A DNA stretch of 16,903 nt from Dehalococcoidia bacterium. GTDB lineage: Bacteria > Chloroflexota > Dehalococcoidia > Lucifugimonadales > SHYF01. Below the pieces are notes generated by a model. That model worked only from the letters and a program-made list of their open reading frames with translations. It was not told where the DNA came from and ran no database searches. Each line of letters starts with the position of its first letter. The first letter of the stretch is position 1. Shown in pieces: positions 4,751 through 15,455 of the stretch. A program made the translations under genes and the position numbers. The DNA is taken from positions 1 through 16,903 of the forward strand of contig SHYF01000015.1 in the NCBI GenBank assembly GCA_009692985.1, written 5' to 3'.

Positions 4751-5341
4751 TTGGCAAGAGTGCGAGCGCGTCGCCAGCGGGCTGAGAAGGATGCGGTTCA
4801 GCGAGAGGAGCGCCGGGCAAGGCATCAGGCCCGGAGACGGCTGCAGCGTTGGATGTATTTGGGGGTGTCGGGGGTCATCGCTGTTCTTATTACAGTCTCA
4901 TTGTTCCTGCCGCGGTTGCCATCACGCAACCAAGCCAGTGACCAGGCCGTGGTGACAATAGAGGAAGGGCAGGAGTACGCTGGATACGCATCCAGGCCGC
5001 CCACCTATGGCCCCAGGTGGCCGACAGCTGCCGAGTGGGGAGTGCATACGGAAGAAATCCCGAACCCCAGGCAGGTGGCGAACCTGGCAGAGGGCGGGGT
5101 GTTTATCCAGTACAAGACCAGTGACGAGGAGTTGGCGAAGAAGCTGGGTGAGTTTGCCAAGGGGCAGGCCAACTTCCCGTGTTACATCGTCGTAGCCCCG
5201 TACGCTAGTATGGAGACGGCCATTGCTGTCACGGCATGGGGGGCTAAGGAGACTATGGACGCCTATGACGAGGCCAAGCTGAAGGGTTTCGTTGAGACGT
5301 ACCGGGGCCAGGGGCCCCAGGTCAAGTCGTGTACGCCCTAG
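4751..5341 (+). CDS. DUF3105-family membrane-anchored protein (diverged copy)
   Basis: A 196-residue protein. Residues 1-33 are highly basic, residues 34-54 form one hydrophobic transmembrane segment, and the rest is probably extracytoplasmic. It is clearly paralogous to the next gene: GYASRPPTYGP, GGVFIQY, NFPCYIVVAPY and the C-terminal AVTAWGAKETMDAYDEAKL align along its length. Two Cys (144 and 194) are shared with the paralogue and could form a disulfide. The His residues typical of DUF3105 (PPTSGPH and HNLEHGG) are missing here, reading PPTYGPR and ANLAEGG. The TTG start has AGGAGG at 4741-4746. It lies 12 bases after purC. The function of DUF3105 is unknown. Confidence 0.8.
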   Translation: MARVRARRQRAEKDAVQREERRARHQARRRLQRWMYLGVSGVIAVLITVSLFLPRLPSRNQASDQAVVTIEEGQEYAGYASRPPTYGPRWPTAAEWGVHTEEIPNPRQVANLAEGGVFIQYKTSDEELAKKLGEFAKGQANFPCYIVVAPYASMETAIAVTAWGAKETMDAYDEAKLKGFVETYRGQGPQVKSCTP

Positions 5342-5360
5342 ATTAGGAGTTAGATTCGAA

Positions 5361-5864
5361 ATGATGAAGATGCGATACTTGGTTATACTGCTGTCACTGG
5401 TGTTGAGCGGCATGGGAGCGGCCTCTTGCGCTGGCAACAAACCAGGAGAGGTGTTCCCAGACCAGGGTGCGCAGCACATTCCAGACAACCAGCCGTTCAC
5501 AAACTACAACAGTGTTCCACCGACGTCGGGTCCGCATTGGGGCGCGCCCGCCGGGTGGGGGATATCGTCTTCACCCATTCTAAATGAGCGGCAGGTGCAT
5601 AACCTGGAGCACGGTGGGGTCATGATCCAATACAGTGCCGCGGACACCGAGTTGGTCAGGAAGCTAGTGCAGTTCGCGCAGAAGCAGGAGAACTTCCCGT
5701 GTTTCATCAATCTAGCGCCCTATCCAAACATGCCGTATAAGATAGCGGTGACCGCCTGGGGCGTCCGGGACACGATGGATAGCTTTGACGAGGCGAGGCT
5801 GCAGAAGTTTGTGGACACATACATGAGCAAGGGGCCCGAGCATGGGATCCGCTGCACGGTGTAG
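5361..5864 (+). CDS. DUF3105-family putative lipoprotein
   Basis: A 167-residue secreted protein with a basic start, a hydrophobic stretch at residues 6-22 and Cys23 in a weak lipobox (AASC), so it is likely a lipoprotein or otherwise exported. It keeps the full DUF3105 pattern: PPTSGPH (53-59), VHNLEHGGVMIQY (79-91), NFPCF with Cys114, and a terminal Cys165. The His, Glu and Pro pattern suggests metal binding, which is an inference. The ATG at 5361 follows AGGAGT (5345-5350); an adjacent ATG at 5364 is also possible. It is in tandem with a diverged copy, and its stop lies two bases before purS. No biochemical role is known for the family. Confidence 0.82.
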   Translation: MMKMRYLVILLSLVLSGMGAASCAGNKPGEVFPDQGAQHIPDNQPFTNYNSVPPTSGPHWGAPAGWGISSSPILNERQVHNLEHGGVMIQYSAADTELVRKLVQFAQKQENFPCFINLAPYPNMPYKIAVTAWGVRDTMDSFDEARLQKFVDTYMSKGPEHGIRCTV

Positions 5865-6250: not shown

Positions 6251-7087
6251 TTAGCCGCTGATAGTCCCCTTGGTGCTGGGGACCTGATTGGTGGCGCGTG
6301 GGTCAATCTCCACGGCTTGGCGCAGGGCGCGGGCCAGTGCCTTGAACAGGGCCTCGGCCTTGTGGTGAGGGTCGCTGCCAGACAGCACCCTGGCATGCAA
6401 GGTCAAGCCGCCTTCCAGGGCGAGCCGCTCCAGGAAGTGGCTGACAAGCTCGCCGGCCATGTCCCCTACTCTAGCGCCTTCCAGCCCTGTATGCACCACG
6501 GCGTAGCCCCGCCCGCCGGCGTCCACGACCGCCTGCGCCAGTGCATCGTCGAGGGGCGCCATCGCTGACCCCATGCGCCGTATTCCGGTGCCGTCGCCGA
6601 TGGCCTGGCGTAGGGCGCGGCCCAGCACAATGGCTACGTCCTCAGCCAGGTGGTGAGCGTCGGGAATGGCGTCGCCGCGAGCGGTGAGTGTTATGTCAAT
6701 CAAGCCGTGTCTGGCAAGCTGGGCAAGCAGGTGGTCCAGCATGGCCTCGCCCGTCTGAATCGCGTATCTTCCCTGCCCGTCCAGGTTGATCTCAACCGAG
6801 ACGCGAGTTTCAGAGGTCTCGCGGGTCAGGGAAGCCTGTCGCCCGGAGACGGAAGTATCAGCGTTGCGGCGGCGTGCCCTGCGAGGATTGGCGGTGAGGT
6901 CGCGGGAGACGTAAACGCGGTTCCCGACGCGTGTGACCTGGCCGGTGACAGTGCCGAGGTTGGCGTATCGCCGCAGGGAGGCGGTGGTCATGCCAAGCTC
7001 GGCGGCGCGCTGCGAGAGGGGGACGGTTCCCGCCGGAGCGCGGGTGCGGCGCCTGCGAGTGCCCCGACGGGGTTGTGATTCAACCAT
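6251..7087 (-). CDS. hisB: HTH domain fused to imidazoleglycerol-phosphate dehydratase
   Basis: A 278-residue protein. Residues from about 84 to 278 are a complete IGP dehydratase, which dehydrates imidazole glycerol phosphate to imidazole acetol phosphate. Metal-binding and catalytic positions are visible: LDHLL (His119), ARHG (His127), HHLAED (145-150), DPHHKAEALFKA (His241, His242, Glu245) and the terminal STKG. The usual PxDE motif reads PLDD. Residues 22-64 form a MerR/excisionase-like helix-turn-helix and wing (LSQRAAELGMTTASLRRY, then RVGNRVYVSRDL), flanked by Arg-rich stretches at 7-16 and 69-74. AAGGAG eight bases before this ATG supports translation of the full fusion. The known HisB fusion in enterobacteria is with a phosphatase, not an HTH. 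A role in his regulation is inferred. It is the last gene of the his cluster. Confidence 0.9.
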   Translation of the reverse strand: MVESQPRRGTRRRRTRAPAGTVPLSQRAAELGMTTASLRRYANLGTVTGQVTRVGNRVYVSRDLTANPRRARRRNADTSVSGRQASLTRETSETRVSVEINLDGQGRYAIQTGEAMLDHLLAQLARHGLIDITLTARGDAIPDAHHLAEDVAIVLGRALRQAIGDGTGIRRMGSAMAPLDDALAQAVVDAGGRGYAVVHTGLEGARVGDMAGELVSHFLERLALEGGLTLHARVLSGSDPHHKAEALFKALARALRQAVEIDPRATNQVPSTKGTISG

Positions 7088-7095
7088 TTCTGCCG

Positions 7096-7101
7096 CTCCT
7101 T
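7096..7101 (-). promoter_or_regulatory. Ribosome binding site that fixes the long HTH-HisB start
   Basis: On the - strand AAGGAG ends eight bases before the ATG at 7087, an ideal spacing. I found no comparable site before an internal start that would give only the dehydratase domain, so the HTH region is very likely translated. Confidence 0.75.
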
Positions 7102-7112
7102 ACTAGTTGTTT

Positions 7113-7222
7113 TGACCCTTACCCCCTAGCCCCCTCTCCCTCACAGGGAGAGGGGGAGGGAGAAAGGAATCTGGGGGACACCCCCAGACCCCCGACAAGG
7201 AACCTGGGTTCCTTGTATCCTC
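7113..7222 (+). repeat. Triple-hairpin intergenic element, copy 3 (hisC-hisB gap)
   Basis: Hairpin 1 is a perfect 12-bp stem (7130-7141 with 7145-7156, loop CAC). Hairpin 2 is CTGGGGGACACCCCCAG (7171-7187), identical to copy 1. Hairpin 3 is ACAAGGAACC pairing perfectly with GGTTCCTTGT (7195-7204, 7207-7216). Its sequence is quite different from hairpin 3 in the other copies but it is fully paired. It lies in the leader just upstream of hisB. Confidence 0.85.
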
Positions 7223-7251: not shown

Positions 7252-8349
7252 CTACGATAATATCATTTGCAGCGCTTCTACTAGGGCCTTGTTCTGCTGG
7301 GGAAGGCCCACACTGAGGCGGATATAGTCCCGCAGCAAATCAGTATCATAGTAGCGAACAAATATACCACGCTTTGCCAGTTCCTGGTAGACACGATGGC
7401 CCTGGCCCTTGGCCAGGCGGCAGAGGATGAAGTTGGCGCGGGATGGCAGCGGGACAAGCCCAGGGATTCGCCGCAGCCGGGCAAAGAGGCTATCTCGCTC
7501 AGCCACGATGGACTGGACACGCGATAGCAGGAGGGCCTTGTCATCCAGCGAAGCTAACAGGGCGATCTCGGCGGCGACGCTGAGGTTATAGGGGGGCTTG
7601 ATGACCATCAGCCGCTCGGCGACTGCCGGGTCCATGATGCCGTACCCCAGGCGCATGCCAGCCAGGCCCGCCCACTTGCTGAATGTGCGCAGCACCACCA
7701 GGTTGGAGTGTTGGGGAATCAGGTGGGCCAGGGTGGCGCCGGCGAACTCGTAGTAGGCCTCGTCCACCACCACCAGCAGGTCCAGCGACAGAAGCTGGCG
7801 AAGAGTGGCTTCACTTAGCAGGTTGCCCGAGGGATTATTGGGCGAGGCCAGAAAGATGACCTTGGCTCCTTGTCTGGCCTCTTTACGGATGGCTTCTATG
7901 TCCACGTCGAAGGTTTTGGTGCGTGGCACGGAAACCAGCTCTCCGCCAACCACGGAGACGAACGAGGCGTACATCCCAAAGGTGGGCACGCAATCAATGA
8001 CGCGGTCGCCTGGCGCGACGAAGAGGCGGAGCAACAGGTCAATTAGCTCATCGCTGCCCACGCCAGCCACTATGCGATCTGGAGTGGTGCCGGCGTATGC
8101 GGCCAAGGCTTCCCGGATGCGGCGCTGCTGAGGGTCGGGGTATATGTGGTAGCCTTTGTAGCTGGCCAGGGCTTCAGCCACCTTGGGCGAGGGGCCGTAG
8201 GGGTTCTCGTTGGCATCCAGCTTGGCGATGTCGTCTTCGGCGAGGCCGGCGCGGGCGGCCAGCACCGACGGAGGGTCCACCGCCGCGTAGGGGACGGCGT
8301 CCAGCATGTGAGGGAGCATCAGACTACGTATGTCTTTTGGGTTGGGCAT
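7252..8349 (-). CDS. hisC: Histidinol-phosphate aminotransferase
   Basis: A 365-residue class I/II PLP aminotransferase that converts imidazole acetol phosphate to histidinol phosphate using glutamate. It has the HisC start LDANENPYGPSP (residues 44-55), SPNNPSGN (169-176), VVDEAYYEF with Asp196 for the PLP ring nitrogen, RTFSKWAGLAGMRLGYG with Lys225 as the PLP Schiff-base lysine, and a C-terminal Arg in DYIRLSVG. Length is normal. The ATG at 8349 has only a weak AGG upstream. It follows the uncharacterised gene at 8434-9192 after 84 bases and precedes hisB, which makes its substrate. Related aromatic aminotransferases are close in sequence, but the his context supports HisC. Confidence 0.93.
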   Translation of the reverse strand: MPNPKDIRSLMLPHMLDAVPYAAVDPPSVLAARAGLAEDDIAKLDANENPYGPSPKVAEALASYKGYHIYPDPQQRRIREALAAYAGTTPDRIVAGVGSDELIDLLLRLFVAPGDRVIDCVPTFGMYASFVSVVGGELVSVPRTKTFDVDIEAIRKEARQGAKVIFLASPNNPSGNLLSEATLRQLLSLDLLVVVDEAYYEFAGATLAHLIPQHSNLVVLRTFSKWAGLAGMRLGYGIMDPAVAERLMVIKPPYNLSVAAEIALLASLDDKALLLSRVQSIVAERDSLFARLRRIPGLVPLPSRANFILCRLAKGQGHRVYQELAKRGIFVRYYDTDLLRDYIRLSVGLPQQNKALVEALQMILS

Positions 8350-8433: not shown

Positions 8434-9192
8434 CTATTGCCGCGCTAGCAGGTTCGAGTTTAGCGCATCCACCCACTTGAGAAAGTCAATGCCATTCCGC
8501 AACGCTGCACGGAGTATATCAGGCGGCGGCGTGGTACCGCCCATTGCCAGCAGATCATCATAGAACCTCAGGGCATGCTGGTGTCCTGGGTCTCCATTGT
8601 ACCGCTCGCTTAGCCGCTGTAGCGCCGTAAACTTGTCCTCAGCCCAAAGGGCAGAGGCATCCTCATCGTCGTAGCTGACAAGTGCGTAGACCGATGGTGT
8701 GGTTATCGTGGATAGGAGGCGCAGCCTACGTGGAAGAGTGTCATTGCGATTGTCTACAAGGCTCCTTTGGAAGTCGGCGAGGTATTGTCGGGCTGTGCCT
8801 ATCAGTTTGCGGGAGTTCCCACGTAGTTGCTCGTTGGTTGGCTCGTAGCCCCCAGGTATTGCTCTGTAGAGCACGCTGTAGGTGCCGCGAATTGGCCCCA
8901 ACCACCCTGGCGGCAGATGTCCGATCTCTACCAAGTAAAGTTGCAACTCAGTGAAGCCAGCTTCGCGTACACTCAAGCTATCCATACGCTCCTGCATTGC
9001 GAAGATTTTGTCTGTATCTACACCGTACGGTCCAGACTGGCCTGGATTGAGGTAGACCTGGGCATCGAAGTCGGAGAAGCCCTGTATGATGCCTTGAATT
9101 GCGTCGCCGCCCAGAACTTCAAGGCAGACTCTTACCAGGCGCTCGCCAATGGCGTGCACCTGCGCCGGGTTTGATGGAATGGGTTGTGCCAT
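8434..9192 (-). CDS. Uncharacterised protein, possible nucleotidyltransferase fold
   Basis: A 252-residue protein I do not recognise with certainty. The N-terminal segment GGDAIQGIIQGFSDFDAQVYL (residues 28-48) has the shape of a minimal nucleotidyltransferase motif: a Gly-rich turn, then Ser-Asp-x-Asp (40-43) ending a strand. A later strand, ELQLYLVEIG, and the VLYRAIPGG segment also recall kanamycin nucleotidyltransferase-like proteins. The canonical Gly-Ser pair is not clear, so activity is uncertain. The C-terminal half is helical and acidic, with several Trp and Tyr. No signal peptide or membrane segment is seen. It sits between hisD and hisC in the same orientation, with a triple-hairpin element upstream and only a weak ribosome binding site. 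Nothing shows a role in histidine synthesis. Confidence 0.7.
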   Translation of the reverse strand: MAQPIPSNPAQVHAIGERLVRVCLEVLGGDAIQGIIQGFSDFDAQVYLNPGQSGPYGVDTDKIFAMQERMDSLSVREAGFTELQLYLVEIGHLPPGWLGPIRGTYSVLYRAIPGGYEPTNEQLRGNSRKLIGTARQYLADFQRSLVDNRNDTLPRRLRLLSTITTPSVYALVSYDDEDASALWAEDKFTALQRLSERYNGDPGHQHALRFYDDLLAMGGTTPPPDILRAALRNGIDFLKWVDALNSNLLARQ

Positions 9193-9354: not shown

Positions 9355-10692
9355 CTACTCTTTTGGGGCCGCGCGCAGGTCGGCGGCGCGGGCGTGGCCG
9401 GTGAAGCCTTCGGCGCGGGCGATGATGGCTGCGGCGGGCGCTAGCCGGCGGGCCACATCCGGCTTCAACGCAATTACCGGGATCCGTTTGATGAACTGGT
9501 CTACGCCCAGGTATGAGGCAAAGCGCGCCGTGCCGTGGGTTGGAATTGTGTGGCTTGGGCCTGCCACGTAGTCGCCCATGACCTCGGCGGAGTGCTCGCC
9601 CAGGAACAATCCGCCGGCGTGGCGCACTCTTTTGACCCAGCGGCGGGGCTGCTTCACCATGAGGCAAAGATGCTCTGGGGCGATAAGGTTGGACACATCC
9701 AGTGCTTCCGCCAGGTTTCCAACCAGTATCATCGCGCCGTGGTTGTTCAAGGAGGCCAGGGCGATGTCCCGTCGCTCCAGCGTCATGAGCTGTTTCACCA
9801 GCTCATCCCCTACCCTGCTGACCAGGGCCTCCGATGGCGTTATCAGGACTGCCGAGGCCAGAACGTCGTGCTCCGCCTGGGCCAGGAGGTCGGCGGCGCA
9901 GAGGGCCGGGTCAGCCGAGTCGTCGGCAACGACCACGGTCTCGGTGGGGCCGAAGACGCCGTCAATGCCCACCTGACCGAAAAGCTGCTGCTTGGCCAGG
10001 GCGACGAATATGTTGCCCGGGCCGCAAATCTTGTCTACTTTGGGGACAGACTCGGTGCCAAAGGCCATGGCCGCGATAGCCTGAGCGCCGCCGATGCGGA
10101 ACACCCTATCCACGCCCGCTATGTGGGCCGCGGCCAGCACAACGGCGCTGGCGTTGACGCCGTCATGGGCGGGGCTGCATACGATGACCTCTTGCACTCC
10201 CGCTGTGCGGGCGGTGACAGCGCTCATGATGACAGTGGAAGGGTAAGCGGCGGTGCCGCCGGGGGCATAGAGGCCGACGCGCTCCAGAGGCACGATAAGC
10301 TCTCCAAGGCCAGTGTTGGGGTCGTGCCAGGTCTTTGGCAGGGATACTTCGGCGAACTTGGCGACTCGCTGGGCGGCAAGCTCAAGAGCGGCCCGAAGAT
10401 CGGTGGGGATGCTCTCCGCAGCCTGGGCAAGTGCTTTCTTGGGGACCTCCAGGTCTGCAAAGCGTATGCCATCTATGTGCTCCGTCAGGTCTCTTAGGGC
10501 CGCATCGCCACCCTTGCGGATATCCTCGATGATGCGGCGGACAGACTCGGGTACTGTTAGGGGTGAGCCCCAGACGGCCTGGCTGCGCAGGAGGACCGCC
10601 TTTGCCAGTTCCTCTGGAATCTCCTGAGAGGTAATGGAGGTGCGGGCTGCCGCGAATGCCCTGGCCTCCTCCAGGCCGTGCAACACTCTCAT
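9355..10692 (-). CDS. hisD: Histidinol dehydrogenase
   Basis: A 445-residue zinc enzyme that oxidises histidinol to histidine through histidinal using two NAD+. Landmarks, numbered from the ATG at 10692: CGPGNIFVALAK (from 223), FGPTETVVVAD, the zinc ligands Gln272 and His275 in QAEHD, the catalytic pair Glu340-His341 in APEHL, Asp374 in GDYVAG, His381, and the C-terminal zinc ligand His433 in GFTGHA. The ATG at 10692 overlaps the TGA of the upstream gene (ATGA, four shared bases), and the family N-terminus begins here. The ten extra codons available upstream belong to the overlap and are rejected. The overlap implies translational coupling with the phospholipase-C-like gene. The last step of the pathway. 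Confidence 0.95.
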   Translation of the reverse strand: MRVLHGLEEARAFAAARTSITSQEIPEELAKAVLLRSQAVWGSPLTVPESVRRIIEDIRKGGDAALRDLTEHIDGIRFADLEVPKKALAQAAESIPTDLRAALELAAQRVAKFAEVSLPKTWHDPNTGLGELIVPLERVGLYAPGGTAAYPSTVIMSAVTARTAGVQEVIVCSPAHDGVNASAVVLAAAHIAGVDRVFRIGGAQAIAAMAFGTESVPKVDKICGPGNIFVALAKQQLFGQVGIDGVFGPTETVVVADDSADPALCAADLLAQAEHDVLASAVLITPSEALVSRVGDELVKQLMTLERRDIALASLNNHGAMILVGNLAEALDVSNLIAPEHLCLMVKQPRRWVKRVRHAGGLFLGEHSAEVMGDYVAGPSHTIPTHGTARFASYLGVDQFIKRIPVIALKPDVARRLAPAAAIIARAEGFTGHARAADLRAAPKE

Positions 10693-11444
10693 GGCAGGTA
10701 CTCCCGGACTATCCTGGCCCATTCCTGCGCTATGGTCTGCCTGTACGAAACCAGGGCTGACTTGGGCACAATGTCGTATATGCGTTCCAGGCTTTGCGAT
10801 GGGTCTGCCAAGAAGCTATCGGCTATGAGTTTAGCCCGGTCGTGCTCCTGGGTGTCCTGCCGGCGGGTCGCGAGGCCTCGCAGTCGCTCCCAGGTGAACT
10901 CCCGCTGCGTGAGGCCAATCAGCCACTCTCGCCACTCGGTCAGCGTCTCGTCGGGCAGGAAGTCGACGGAGACTCCATCGTTGGCGTCTGGGAAGCGGTC
11001 GGCGACGGCCTTCATGCCAAGGCGCTTTTCCCTGACGCACCTGTCCAGGTCTAGCTGCAAGGCGCGATCCATTACGTTGGCCTCCACTGGGTCGTGGAAA
11101 AGGTCGCGGTTGGCGAAGTACGGGCGGTATATCTGGATAATCCATGCCTCGTCGGCCACCAGGTGAGAGATGTAACCGGCCATGAATGCCTGGGTAGGCC
11201 CAGAGAGGGCGGCCGCATGGCTCAAGTTGGGATATGCCACAAACAGATTAGTAGCGCCGGCGCCGATGGTGGAGTTGCTGAGAGGCGCAAAATGGGTGTC
11301 GTCGCGCTGGCCGCGGGTTATTACGCGCACATCCGGTGCGCAGCTACCCAGTAGGAAGCTGCCCAGATTGGCCTCGATGACCCGGCGAGAGAGATGCTCG
11401 GATAGCTCCAAAGCGATGTCCAGGTGAGCTGTGGGATTGGGCAC
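10689..11444 (-). CDS. Zinc-dependent phospholipase C-like protein
   Basis: A 251-residue protein resembling the zinc-dependent phospholipase C/S1-P1 nuclease-type fold. It begins PNPTAHLDIALEL with an early His7, then NLGSFLLGSCAPDVR with Asp38, RDDTHF (47-52), and AGYISHLVADEAW with His94 and Asp98. This spacing of His and Asp is the typical metal-site pattern of the family. No signal peptide is visible, so it is probably cytoplasmic. The GTG at 11444 starts ten bases after the hisG stop; the frame upstream of it only overlaps hisG. It ends by overlapping the hisD start. Similar proteins are common in Chloroflexota and Firmicutes without a known substrate. A histidinol-phosphate phosphatase role would be attractive from position but is only speculation. 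Confidence 0.75.
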   Translation of the reverse strand: MPNPTAHLDIALELSEHLSRRVIEANLGSFLLGSCAPDVRVITRGQRDDTHFAPLSNSTIGAGATNLFVAYPNLSHAAALSGPTQAFMAGYISHLVADEAWIIQIYRPYFANRDLFHDPVEANVMDRALQLDLDRCVREKRLGMKAVADRFPDANDGVSVDFLPDETLTEWREWLIGLTQREFTWERLRGLATRRQDTQEHDRAKLIADSFLADPSQSLERIYDIVPKSALVSYRQTIAQEWARIVREYLP

Positions 11445-11454
11445 GGTTTTATCT

Positions 11455-12477
11455 CTAATCTTGGCTAAGTGTCTTGAGCATCTTCTGGTAGGTATGGGAC
11501 AGATCGCGGAAGACGTAGCGGGGCTGGAGCACGGATACGCCGGTGCCGCCAATAGCGCGGAAGTGGTCCACCGTCTCTTGAAGGCTGGACTGCGGCACCA
11601 CCACGGTAACGGCGTACCAGCCGTCACCTTCGGGCGTGTAGACCTGGGAAACGGTGGGGCCTTTGAGTCCGGTGAACTCGTGGTGTTCGAGGACCGCCCG
11701 GGCCACGTGGTCGGCGGAAGGGCCGCGCACGTTGGCGGTGATTTTGAAGAAGCGGCGGGCCTCCAGGTATGCCTCCATGCGCTCGATGAGGCGGCGCGCC
11801 GCCTCTTGCTTAGCGGCGCTCTGCTTCAAGGTGGTGCGGTTGCCGATAAGGCAAGCCTGGGAGTGCAAAACTGTGCCGTCGGCTAGCACCTTTAGCTTGT
11901 TTTCTCGCAAGGTGGTGCCCGTAGCAGAGATGTCCACGATGAGGTCGGCGAAGCCCATGGTGGGAGCCGCCTCCAGTGTGCCGCTGGAAGGCACTACGGC
12001 GAAGAAGTTGATGCCGTGGCCAAAGAAGAAGCGTTGGGTCATGCGAGGGTACTTGGTGGCGACACGGAGGTCGCGACCGCGCTCCCTGAACTCAACCGCC
12101 AGGTCTGCCACATCGGCCATGTCTGTGACGTCCATCCATGCCTCGGGCACCGCCGTAACCAGCTCGCACTGGCTGTAGCCCAGGTCGTCACAGATGACGA
12201 AGCCGGGGCCGTCGTCCAGATGGGACTCGGCGAACCGGTCCAGTCCTGCGATACCTATGTCGGTGCTGCCGTCCTCCACTTTGGCGGTGATGTCTGCGGC
12301 GCGTTGGAACAGCACCAGGACGCCCTCCAGAGAGTGCAGCGATCCGGTGTAGCGGCGTGAGTTGGTGCGGTCCACAGCCAAGCCGCACTCTCGCAGGAAG
12401 GCGAGAGTGGAGTCATACATCTCGCCGTCGCTGGGGATGGCGAGCCGGAGAGGATCGTTGCTGTTGTTGCGCTGCAT
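11455..12477 (-). CDS. hisG: ATP phosphoribosyltransferase, long form
   Basis: A 340-residue enzyme for the committed step of histidine synthesis: ATP plus PRPP gives phosphoribosyl-ATP. The two catalytic lobes cover about residues 8-235, with DIGIAGLD, the C-D-D-L segment near 96-99, and the PRPP loop VDISATGTTLREN (181-193). Residues about 243-325 (FKITANVRG, then LKGPTVSQVY and WYAVTVVV) form the C-terminal regulatory domain of long-form HisG, which binds histidine for feedback inhibition and normally needs no HisZ. The ATG at 12477 is preferred; a GTG two codons upstream (12483) has better spacing to GAGG. The longer open frame upstream reads through a repeat and is rejected. It lies 147 bases after the HisS/HisZ-like gene. 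Confidence 0.93.
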   Translation of the reverse strand: MQRNNSNDPLRLAIPSDGEMYDSTLAFLRECGLAVDRTNSRRYTGSLHSLEGVLVLFQRAADITAKVEDGSTDIGIAGLDRFAESHLDDGPGFVICDDLGYSQCELVTAVPEAWMDVTDMADVADLAVEFRERGRDLRVATKYPRMTQRFFFGHGINFFAVVPSSGTLEAAPTMGFADLIVDISATGTTLRENKLKVLADGTVLHSQACLIGNRTTLKQSAAKQEAARRLIERMEAYLEARRFFKITANVRGPSADHVARAVLEHHEFTGLKGPTVSQVYTPEGDGWYAVTVVVPQSSLQETVDHFRAIGGTGVSVLQPRYVFRDLSHTYQKMLKTLSQD

Positions 12478-12489
12478 TCGCACAGATAC

Positions 12490-12605
12490 CTCATCCCCCT
12501 TTGTCCCCCTTCTCCTGCAGGAGAAGGGGGAATAGAAAAAGAGACCAGGGGGCACCCCTGTTACCCCGGCAGGGGGCACAGCCCCCTGCACCCCCAAGGG
12601 GAGAG
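12490..12605 (+). repeat. Triple-hairpin intergenic element, copy 5 (hisZ/S-hisG gap)
   Basis: Hairpin 1 is a perfect 12-bp stem (12505-12516 with 12519-12530). Hairpin 2 is CAGGGG-GCA-CCCCTG (12546-12560). Hairpin 3 is CAGGGGGC-ACA-GCCCCCTG (12570-12588), perfectly paired. An A-rich spacer lies between hairpins 1 and 2, so that on the - strand hairpin 2 is followed by TCTCTTTTTCTATTC. It lies in the leader of hisG. Confidence 0.85.
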
Positions 12606-12624: not shown

Positions 12625-14046
12625 CTATGGCACCCTTCGGCGGCGAGTCTTTCCGTCTGGGTCCACGGTAAGGACGTAGGCCATCCCTTGCGACTGCGCC
12701 AGGAGGAGGCACTCCTTCAAGGAGCGACCATCCAACTCCAACTGTACCACTTTCCCCTGGGCACGCAAACGTTGCGCTTCTATGACCGCTGCGGGCGCAG
12801 CCGTCGCGCTGTCAGCCCTTACGAGGTGCGATTCGTGCTGGCTTACGGGGGCTTTGGAAAAGCCCGGTTTCACGGTGGTGGCAGCCAGTACGCGCTCCAG
12901 AGACCATGCAAAGCCCATGGCCGGCGTCGGATCAGCGCCTCCCAGGGCTTGAATCAGGTCGTCGTAGCGGCCACCTCCGCCAAGGGATGTGCCGCCAGAG
13001 GCGGGGTGCTGTACCTCGAACACCACGCCGGTGTAGTAGGCGATGCCGCGGGCAAGGCCAAAGTCCAAGGATACAGGCACTGCGGTATCGTAAAGGGCCA
13101 GCAGCTTCAGGGTGTCGGCCAGCCGGTCAAGCTCTGCCTTTGCCTGGACCGAGGCACTCCTCTGCCGGGCTTTCCTGAGCACCTCCTTTGGGTCGCCGCG
13201 TGTCTGCACCACTTTGGATAGGAGGTTTAAGGCCGCCTCAAAGCGACCGTTGTCCTGGGCGGACCGTTGCTTGCGCAGGAAGCGCTCCCGTATCTCTTGA
13301 GGGGTGCGCACGCCGATAATTGACGACTCAGAAGCTTGGACGTACTGCTCCAGCAGAGCCAAGGCCGCCTCAGATGTCACGGCGCTCTCTGCGTCTGCCG
13401 GGGTGGACTGTCCCGCTATCAGCCCCAGCTCCTCAGCCCGCTGCCGCACCAGGCGGACACCACCGTCGCCTTGGCTCAGTGTGCCAACGCTGGCCAAGAG
13501 GAAAAGCCGCGCCCTATCGGATATGTCCATGGAGTCCAGGAGCGCCGCCACATACCCCAGGTGGCCCACTATCAGGCGGTGTCCTGTGATGCCCAAGCTG
13601 GATAGGCCCTGGATGGCTAAGGCCATGACCTCTGCATCTGCCCAGGGGCCGGAAGCGCCGATCAGCTCCGCTCCGACCTGGGTGAACTGACGGTGCTCCG
13701 TAACCTCCGGCTCGTAGCGGAAGACGGGGCCAAGGTATGACCAGCGAACAGGCAAAGGACCGCCGCCGTTCATCCCGTGGAGATAGGCGCGGACTATGGA
13801 TGATGTGAACTCTGGGCGTAGGCTGACGCGGTGTCCGCCGGGGTCGGTGAATGTGTACATTTTGCTGGCAAGCTCGCCGCCGGACTTGCGGAGTAGGAGG
13901 TCTGTCTCCTCCAGGAGAGGCGTGCCCACGCGTCGGTAACCGTAGCTGGACATCAGGGAGCAAAGGGCATCGGCGGCCCAGGCTATGGTCTGGGTCGCCT
14001 GGGGGCCAAAGTCTTCCATTCCATTCAGGCGGCGCGGTAGCAGCAT
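12625..14046 (-). CDS. Histidyl-tRNA synthetase-like protein (HisZ or HisS paralogue)
   Basis: A 473-residue class II aminoacyl-tRNA synthetase fold. Motif 1 surrounds GTPLLEETDLL, motif 2 is SLRPEFTSSIVRA (from 75) and FRYEPEVTEHRQF (from 109), and the histidine-binding motif LARGIAYYTGVVFE (331-344) keeps the Arg and both Tyr. GGGGRYDDLI (356-365) precedes motif 3. RPEFT instead of RPEGT, and EPEVTEHRQF instead of the usual PQxGRxRQF, point away from a standard HisS. About 70 C-terminal residues look like a degenerate anticodon-binding domain, which HisZ usually lacks. Position directly before hisG favours a HisZ-like regulatory subunit, yet HisG here is the self-sufficient long form. The ATG at 14046 is chosen; a TTG at 14064 is possible, and neither has a clear ribosome binding site. 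First gene of the cluster. Confidence 0.8.
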   Translation of the reverse strand: MLLPRRLNGMEDFGPQATQTIAWAADALCSLMSSYGYRRVGTPLLEETDLLLRKSGGELASKMYTFTDPGGHRVSLRPEFTSSIVRAYLHGMNGGGPLPVRWSYLGPVFRYEPEVTEHRQFTQVGAELIGASGPWADAEVMALAIQGLSSLGITGHRLIVGHLGYVAALLDSMDISDRARLFLLASVGTLSQGDGGVRLVRQRAEELGLIAGQSTPADAESAVTSEAALALLEQYVQASESSIIGVRTPQEIRERFLRKQRSAQDNGRFEAALNLLSKVVQTRGDPKEVLRKARQRSASVQAKAELDRLADTLKLLALYDTAVPVSLDFGLARGIAYYTGVVFEVQHPASGGTSLGGGGRYDDLIQALGGADPTPAMGFAWSLERVLAATTVKPGFSKAPVSQHESHLVRADSATAAPAAVIEAQRLRAQGKVVQLELDGRSLKECLLLAQSQGMAYVLTVDPDGKTRRRRVP

Positions 14047-14081
14047 GACGATTTTCGATTGCAAGAAGCTATTCGACCATT

Positions 14082-14198
14082 CCCCTGTCCCCCTTTCCTT
14101 CGGCCTACTCAGGACAGGCTCTAGCCAGGAAGGGGGTAAAAGATATATCTGGGGGATACCCCCAGCCCCCCACCAAAGGGGCTTAGCCCCTCTGGGCT
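14082..14198 (+). repeat. Triple-hairpin intergenic element, copy 6 (his leader), long-loop variant
   Basis: Hairpin 1 pairs CCCCCTTTCCT (14089-14099) with AGGAAGGGGG (14127-14136), with one bulge, around a long loop holding CCTTCGGCCTACTCAGG (14097-14113). Hairpin 2 is CTGGGGGATACCCCCAG (14149-14165). Hairpin 3 pairs 14173-14182 with 14186-14195, loop TTA, one mismatch. On the - strand hairpin 2 is followed by ATATATCTTTTA. It lies between the his promoter and the first his gene. Confidence 0.85.
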
Positions 14199-14404: not shown

Positions 14405-15367
14405 CTAATCGGTGCGTCTAAGGATTCTTCCTCCATCCCGCGACCATTTGGTGCGTAGAAGTTCGCTGGCATCGAGGAGTCGCTGAAGCGTCTTATACGA
14501 GGAGTCTTTCAGCTTCGTGACGCCCAGGGCTGTTGCGGCAGCTGCGGCGGCTGAAGTGCCAGGAATGAATGGTTTATCAATGGTAACTTTATTAGACCAG
14601 GCCTTGTCTATGACAGCATCCCAGCCAGCGGGAGTGTCCTGAATCCTTGTACCAGCGGGATTACCTGTGGGATGGCCGTTAGATAGCTCTACTATGACAT
14701 CGCCGCCCCTTGGGTGCGTGAGGTTTACTTCTGGAGATGCCTGCAAGAACCTGGAAAAAGTGGAGTAACCAAGCGATTTAGGATTGAAGGCTGGATCAAG
14801 CCGCTGCATAGTGCTCATGAGCTTGCTACCCGTTACCCTGCCTTGGTCGTCGACTGATACTTTCATGGCGCGTACCAAAAGGGAGTCGCCTGGCAGCGTT
14901 TGAGCAGCATCCGCCAGCGGGGTTGGGCTGGCCTCCAGGTCAAGATAGAAATACTTGTCGCACGAGGCCACAAGGGTGCTGGATACCGCCGCCTTTCTGC
15001 CCGCTCCAATAACAGACTTGCCGGCGGACCGCAGCTTAGTCACCAATGGAACGAAGTCGCTATCAGCTGACACTATGACGAAAGTATCGACAAAAGAGGA
15101 CCCGTGTAGAAGGTCAACAGCATCAATGGCAAGCCGGATGTCGCTGGAGTTCTTGCCTGATGCAGCGGAATGGAAAAGGATTACAGGTTCAATGCCAAGC
15201 TCCAACACCTGACCTCTGTCTCGCCTGGTGTTCTCGGCGGACCAGTCGGCGTATGCGCGCTTGACAACGATGCGGCCAATGTCCGAGATCTGGTCGAAGA
15301 GCCACCGGATGGAACCGAGGCCGACGTTTTCGTAGTCTATCAGCACTGCGATTTGCTGTTCTGCCAT
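14405..15367 (-). CDS. NYN-domain putative RNase with LOTUS/OST-HTH-like region
   Basis: A 320-residue protein. Residues 5-145 form a NYN (PIN-like) nuclease domain: VLIDYENVG with Asp11 and Asn14, GKNSSDIRLAIDA with Asp76 and Asp82, and IVSADSDFVPLV with Asp102 and Asp104. These acidic residues form the metal site in the family. Residues about 158-230 (LLVRAMKVSVDD to FLQASPEVNL) resemble an OST-HTH/LOTUS RNA-binding domain, with its conserved LGYSTFSRFL. A second small helical domain ends the protein (275-320), after a Gly/Pro-rich linker. The ATG at 15367 follows AAGGA at good spacing and the family start (MAEQQIAVLIDYEN); 11 codons further upstream are rejected. It is divergent from hicBA. 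RNA cleavage is expected from the family; the target is unknown. Confidence 0.87.
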   Translation of the reverse strand: MAEQQIAVLIDYENVGLGSIRWLFDQISDIGRIVVKRAYADWSAENTRRDRGQVLELGIEPVILFHSAASGKNSSDIRLAIDAVDLLHGSSFVDTFVIVSADSDFVPLVTKLRSAGKSVIGAGRKAAVSSTLVASCDKYFYLDLEASPTPLADAAQTLPGDSLLVRAMKVSVDDQGRVTGSKLMSTMQRLDPAFNPKSLGYSTFSRFLQASPEVNLTHPRGGDVIVELSNGHPTGNPAGTRIQDTPAGWDAVIDKAWSNKVTIDKPFIPGTSAAAAAATALGVTKLKDSSYKTLQRLLDASELLRTKWSRDGGRILRRTD

Positions 15368-15455
15368 GAACCGTCCTTCACACTGTGGATTGTTGGCCAA
15401 GTCTTACAGCACCTGCTGTGGTTGCATTGTACGCTAGAAGGCCTTGCCGCCGCCA

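Follow-up and report, generated by a model that had tools for sequence, protein, structure and literature searches.

The window, meaning the whole stretch of 16,903 nucleotides analysed here (contig C15 of the Dehalococcoidia assembly G000, 1.3 Mb in size and 71% complete), was found to encode an imidazoleglycerol-phosphate (IGP) dehydratase (IGPD; HisB) that carries a winged helix-turn-helix (wHTH) of the excisionase/MerR fold type ahead of its enzyme domain. The fused gene occupies positions 6251–7087 of the minus strand, and fused HisB was identified in 31 distinct sequences. We regard the protein as a bifunctional enzyme, an IGP dehydratase and a predicted DNA-binding regulator, likely of its own his cluster, and give this reading roughly an even chance.

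Anatomy and predicted fold of the fused HisB

The fused hisB frame translates into 278 residues from an ATG start to the stop codon at 6251–6253, and the ribosome binding site AAGGAG (7096–7101, minus strand) lies 8 nt 5′ of this ATG. The first-pass annotation had placed about 83 residues ahead of a complete HisB domain, which was confirmed for this frame. Its anatomy is near certain and comprises four parts on the minus strand: an Arg-rich arm (residues 1–20; 7028–7087), of which 7 of 20 residues are R or K and for which disorder is predicted; the wHTH (residues 21–66; 6890–7027), located by AlphaFold2, VIA alignment, and conservation; a variable linker (residues 67–82; 6842–6889), predicted to be disordered for most of its length; and the HisB domain (residues 83–278; 6254–6841). 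The latter is complete according to the NCBIfam HisB models (residues ~82–276), and Pfam IGPD (PF00475) matched residues 112–255 over its entire profile (1–144 of 144) with an E value of 2.7e-51 and 173.9 bits, against a cut-off of 27. Solved IGPD structures also matched the HisB part in a sequence search (best E 2.2e-54). Eight residues, H119, H145, H146, E149, H217, H241, H242, and E245, are invariant among 27 full-length sequences, and we take these conserved His and Glu residues to be the metal ligands. The phosphatase domain of HisNB is absent, as NF003937 matched only from its position 165, which is its HisB part. The fused protein was the sole HisB found in each of the genomes G000, G029, G035, G058, and G083.

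In the AlphaFold2 model of the full protein, two helices (residues 24–31 and 35–44) are followed by two wing strands (51–54 and 57–61), and the same helix-helix-strand-strand elements appeared when residues 1–82 were modeled alone. They fall at the places where a helix-turn-helix and wing had been predicted at first pass (residues 22–64), so that the structure models bear out a MerR/excisionase wHTH fold. The best structural matches of the N-terminal model obtained with VIA were lambda excisionase (Xis)–DNA complexes, followed by DNA complexes of SoxR, BldC, RacA, GlnR, and TnrA; MtaN, NmlR, and CueR were also among the matches, together with some unrelated rows, which were proteasome-lid and COP9 subunits. 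A Foldseek search with the full model gave nothing except HisB chains at E ≤ 0.001. As far as the predicted models tell, the compact fold is of the excisionase type, with lambda Xis as the nearest solved structure, and in terms of fold the designation “MerR/excisionase-type” is correct.

At the level of sequence profiles, the expected match to HTH_17/MerR models held only in part: weak matches above a shuffled control were obtained, all of them under the curated cut-offs. Among 14 N-terminal sequences searched against Pfam at E ≤ 1, MerR_1 matched 7, MerR 4, and HTH_17 one (E 0.0059), while none of ten shuffled sequences made from the 14 matched any HTH family. No HTH match in this set attained its curated cut-off, and the isolated N-terminal part reached 13.8 bits for MerR_1 against the required 21.6. 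When full-length proteins were searched, MerR_1 and HTH_17 each matched 1 of 27, and the window protein itself gave no MerR_1 match. Other Pfam matches, to DUF3022 (2/14), DUF3853 (2/14), and Octopine_DH (1/14), were taken as chance. A search of solved structures with N-terminal sequence profiles gave at best E 0.94 for the MerR-type HI_0186 and E 0.26 for an unrelated capsid protein.

Membership in two named families was considered and set aside. MerR proteins share the wHTH fold with the model, but the MerR_1 score stays under its cut-off, and a long coiled-coil dimerization helix was not found after the wHTH: the linker is disordered at residues 69–81 in the full model, and the N-terminal model has only a short low-confidence helix at 68–77. 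For BldC, the hhalign E values of 0.11 and 0.012 were not significant. In an alignment with BldC, R40 falls on Arg30, while V54 and N56 replace Gly44 and His46. BldC is described as a MerR-like wHTH protein without a coiled coil, which binds head-to-tail on direct repeats and whose R30A, G44E, and H46A substitutions abolish binding (PMC5859096).

Occurrence in relatives, conservation, and descent

A search with the full protein gave matches in 56 of 59 related genomes. Full-length fusions were detected in G000, G035 (70%), G058 (68%), and G029 (65%), and G038 matched with the N-terminal part alone. The matches of the other genomes start within residues 23–85, and those starting before residue 55 (5 genomes) hold stop codons. 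When the upstream frames at 31 loci were read, the 26 unfused ones showed no wHTH. In the order, 250 genomes were searched with an N-terminal profile and 9 had a match; six of these matches have E ≤ 8.5e-27 and lie in or adjoin his genes (G000, G029, G035, G038, G058, and G083), and the remaining three are ordinary HTH proteins with E 5e-4 to 8.5e-4. In database searches, 13 proteins matched the window N-terminal region and 18 matched the G038 sequence, of which one is the query and one was common to both searches, giving 30 proteins after overlap. Twenty-six of them are 273–286 residues long and four are shorter (P0005, P0009, P0010, and P0014); the IGPD domain was present in all except P0014. 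The named relatives are metagenome-assembled genomes of Chloroflexi/Dehalococcoidia, and three of these carry a groundwater label.

Across 27 full-length proteins, the most frequent residue at a position accounted on average for 0.66 of the sequences in residues 1–20, 0.81 in 21–66, 0.54 in 67–82, and 0.83 in 83–277. By this measure the wHTH is almost as well conserved as the enzyme, unlike the linker, though selecting the proteins by an N-terminal match biases the figures upward. All 27 have R39 and R40 in the recognition helix. For five genomes with DNA, four taken from the full-length search and G083 from the N-terminal profile, the mean pairwise identity was 0.43 in the arm, 0.67 in the wHTH, 0.44 in the linker, and 0.73 in HisB. 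The Jukes–Cantor-corrected ratio of nonsynonymous to synonymous substitution (dN/dS) for the ten genome pairs was 0.30–0.55 for the wHTH and 0.13–0.29 for HisB, and these ratios are rough as dS is high. Judged by them, the wHTH is under purifying selection that is weaker than that acting on the enzyme.

These comparisons also bear on where translation begins. If it began at Met33 or only with the dehydratase domain, the upstream part would be non-coding, and one database entry (P0010), identical to the window protein, does begin at Met33. Several features speak against such a short start: conservation in relatives extends over the start region, P18, G20, and the wHTH, and the indels of the linker preserve the frame. 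The long start also has a ribosome binding site ahead of it in G000, and AGGAG-like sites were recognized at this place in three relatives, G058, G029, and G038; none was evident in G035. Because of the conservation and the ribosome binding sites, a start-site artefact was rejected as highly improbable, and the homologue survey left the first-pass claim of an N-terminal fusion standing.

The descent of the fusion was examined in a HisB-domain tree of 57 rows, of which 31 are fused and 26 unfused (L005–L030); unfused matches without a returned locus, the short P0005, P0009, and P0010, and P0014, which has no HisB, were left out. All 31 fused rows fell into one part of the tree (support 100/99), and two unfused rows on long branches, L007 (G025) and L012 (G032), sit inside it. 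Forcing the fused rows into one clade was 9.65 log units worse, with an AU p of 0.0555. The placement of L007 and L012 may reflect a single origin followed by loss or a long-branch artefact, both of which fit this tree. Separately, HisB was not found in G001, a 97% complete genome of the same genus as G000, which also has no close HisC (best E 2.2e-13, 31%) and no match to the wHTH module better than E 0.0056; its his pathway may have been lost.

Repeated modules, modules on other enzymes, and the genomic setting

In G038, the gene that comes directly after hisC holds a tandem array of the wHTH with at least 2.7 copies (G038:C112; L031, 1–677, minus strand). The copies have a period of 237 bp with 97% matches and reach the contig end; each repeat unit comprises the wHTH and roughly a dozen residues from the start of HisB, and the gene of this array begins with AAGGAGG and GTG. 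The few substitutions between the copies speak against a single copy assembled repeatedly. HisB was not found elsewhere in G038, so it presumably continues past the contig end behind the array. The tandem protein is P0014, named in the database as a partial hypothetical protein. It matched HspR at E 6.1e-9, which was given no weight because carbamate kinase (1.3e-6) and FtsL (3.4e-5) also matched; repeats evidently inflate such E values.

A related module was recognized on a second enzyme of amino-acid synthesis. When 393 genomes of the class were searched with the wHTH profile, 7 matches were obtained: HisB in G000 and G029, two ordinary HTH frames, and the C-terminal tails of ketol-acid reductoisomerase (IlvC) in G306 (L068; E 6.7e-9), G350 (L069; 1.4e-4), and G576 (L070; 1.7e-4). 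These tails, which were picked by this same profile, scored 37.1, 24.2, and 18.4 bits, against at most 12.1 for 9000 shuffled tails. The hhalign probability between the IlvC tail and the HisB wHTH was 97.4%, and the G306 tail alone matched HTH_17 at E 0.0055, under the cut-off. The IlvC frame lies between ilvN-like and leuA-like frames (named by eye) in G306 and G576, and the G350 frame is apparently cut by the contig end. A profile of the tail found these three IlvCs alone in the 393 genomes, and a database search with the tail yielded no protein but that of G306, 1 among 99 candidates; the few matches in both searches indicate that the IlvC–wHTH fusion is rare. Among the genomes with fused HisB, KARI_C was detected in 5 of 7, with no module on IlvC at E ≤ 1, and the IlvC frame of G038 has no wHTH tail.

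Over ten genomes, HisB (or, in G038, the array) and IlvC were the sole places with strong matches to the module; the next match had E 0.003. Among 400 genomes of the phylum, weak or strong matches were obtained in 8, with HisB only in G000 itself. Weak matches outside HisB and IlvC, by eye MerR/HspR-like, HTH_17, transposase-like, TetR-like, and others, were set aside as being either ordinary proteins or unrelated ones. A citrate synthase (L078) of G903, a genome of 11.3 Mb with 12% contamination, carries an N-terminal HTH_17 above the cut-off, whose match to the HisB profile is weak (E 6.6e-4). A stand-alone frame of 160 residues with two tandem HTH_17 domains was observed in G392 (L093).

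In the window, fused hisB is the last gene of a his cluster on the minus strand. The cluster opens with a HisS/HisZ-like gene (12625–14064; Pfam tRNA-synt_His), followed by hisG (11455–12597; HisG and HisG_C in Pfam), a Zn-dependent phospholipase C-like open reading frame (ORF) (10689–11627; PF00882) that is also present in the his clusters of G035, G038, and G083, and hisD (9355–10722), recognized from its translation and with homologous frames in the same three genomes. Next comes a 252-residue ORF (8434–9192) with no Pfam match and no counterpart in the related his clusters compared, and then hisC (7252–8349), directly upstream of hisB. The hisC–hisB order was also found in G029, G035, G058, and G083, and in G038 hisC is followed by the wHTH array. 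The his cluster is convergent with a purine cluster, and much of the order recurs in G035, G038, and G083. A gene with NYN nuclease-type and OST-HTH/LOTUS domains (14405–15400, minus strand; Pfam E 2.9e-31 and 9.9e-11) adjoins the his cluster, as it does in G083. A pair of related ORFs lies side by side at 4751–5864 on the plus strand, DUF3105 being present in the second, and two also stand beside purS in G035.

A shared operator was sought in eight stretches, upstream or intergenic, of G000, G029, G038, G058, and G083, and no 9-mer was common to three or more of these few and distant genomes, which limit the search. The 9-mers common to two genomes numbered 46, whereas 50 single-base shuffles averaged 17.5, and this surplus may represent dispersed repeats. 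A dispersed palindrome, CTGGGGGTNTCCCCCAG, occurs in the window at the intergenic positions 1815–1831, 7171–7187, and 14149–14165. Its exact copies numbered 77 in G000, 175 in G001, 109 in G038, 69 in G029, and 0 in G035, and a reversed-pattern control gave 0 in all 9 genomes. It was rejected as a target of the wHTH since its copy number does not track the fusion (175 in G001, which lacks HisB, and 0 in G035, which has the fusion).

Proposed role

A plant IGPD is described as a 24-mer whose N-terminal sheet faces outward; loss of Mn leads to trimers in IGPDs of other species and not in that plant enzyme, and the reason for the 24-mer was called unclear in this structure paper of 2024 (PMC10978614). 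With such an outward sheet, a wHTH on a flexible linker would be exposed. Each subunit of the fused HisB carries an excisionase/MerR-type wHTH on a flexible N-terminal linker, and if assembly is like that of other IGPDs, as many as 24 DNA-binding heads would be on display. The occupancy or assembly state (metal, substrate, trimer or 24-mer) may then set the number of heads that reach DNA together, so that heads on DNA would report the state of the pathway and control gene expression, that of its own his cluster first. A regulator is supported by the conservation of the fusion in 31 sequences, the purifying selection on the wHTH, the basic arm, the invariant R39 and R40, the pairing of R40 with the BldC Arg30 needed for binding, the fold matches to DNA complexes, the tandem copies in G038, the module on IlvC, the precedent of GlnR, and the finding of no other HisB in five genomes with the fusion. 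The suggestion made at first pass, that the enzyme could sense its own pathway and regulate it, stays a possibility; an operator was not found in the stretches searched.

Several other roles were weighed against this one. The wHTH and its basic flanks could anchor the enzyme to nucleic acids of any kind (the nucleoid, RNA, or ribosomes) or could cluster pathway enzymes through weak multivalent contacts, with no specific regulation. The Arg-rich arm and linker flanking the wHTH, the avidity that tandem copies would add in G038, and the failure to find a shared operator agree with this, but the wHTH core, recognition helix, and wing are conserved beyond the need of unspecific charge, and we consider a general tether unlikely, though a serious competitor. 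It is also known that wHTH folds can act as protein-binding domains, and the domain might have been recruited for enzyme assembly or contact with a partner, its DNA binding being lost. The proteasome-lid and COP9 rows among the structural matches, the missing dimerization helix, and again the operator search point that way; the basic arm, the invariant arginines, the DNA complexes as best fold matches, and the unfused HisBs of the same order, which do without the domain, make it decidedly unlikely. A passenger acquired by chance fusion, for example from the excisionase of a mobile element, and tolerated unused would explain the excisionase-like fold and the possible loss in the L007 and L012 lineages, yet the purifying selection estimated from the ten genome pairs and the long-term retention in 31 sequences render it improbable. 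A covalent enzyme-regulator is hence favoured over a general tether or a domain for protein contacts, with a confidence that is about evenly balanced.

Taken more broadly, an excisionase-type wHTH may have been joined at least twice to enzymes of amino-acid synthesis, at the N-terminus of HisB and at the C-terminus of IlvC, and in tandem in one lineage, turning enzyme assemblies into particles with many DNA-binding heads that would sense their catalytic state and govern the operons encoding them; this generalization is tentative, and we think it somewhat doubtful as a whole.

An enzyme and a DNA-binding domain are joined in one chain in BirA, PutA, and NadR, which likewise combine this with self-regulation; they are other enzymes of other pathways, and the DNA-binding role established there is predicted here. 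Enzyme–wHTH fusions also have a precedent in the HTH_17–citrate synthase of G903, which belongs to the same phylum and has its HTH at the N-terminus of a different enzyme. Lambda-type Xis and BldC are small separate proteins, whereas the wHTH described here forms part of a metabolic enzyme. A close likeness is seen in the GlnR/TnrA–glutamine synthetase systems, in which a variable arm, a MerR-type wHTH (α1-α2-β1-β2), and a long linker are combined with an oligomeric biosynthetic enzyme from which the pathway state would be read, and GlnR is reported to be activated by binding dodecameric glutamine synthetase (PMC9249791). GlnR and the feedback-inhibited enzyme to which it binds are however two proteins, whereas here the wHTH and the enzyme form one chain, whose regulatory role is a proposed one. 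The HisNB of γ-proteobacteria similarly carries a domain on the N-terminus of HisB (PMC1963479), although HisN is a phosphatase and the added domain here is of a DNA-binding type. Fusions of HisB reported in the sources cited are HisNB (PMC1963479) and hisJ–hisB (PMC9413887), and no report of a HisB–wHTH or IlvC–wHTH fusion turned up in the open-licence papers searched.

A natural head of DNA-binding type on every HisB subunit, retained in many lineages, makes the assembly state testable as a transcription signal. The module on IlvC further hints that heads on amino-acid enzymes may be a more widespread means of linking pathways to gene control, one that needs no separate regulator.
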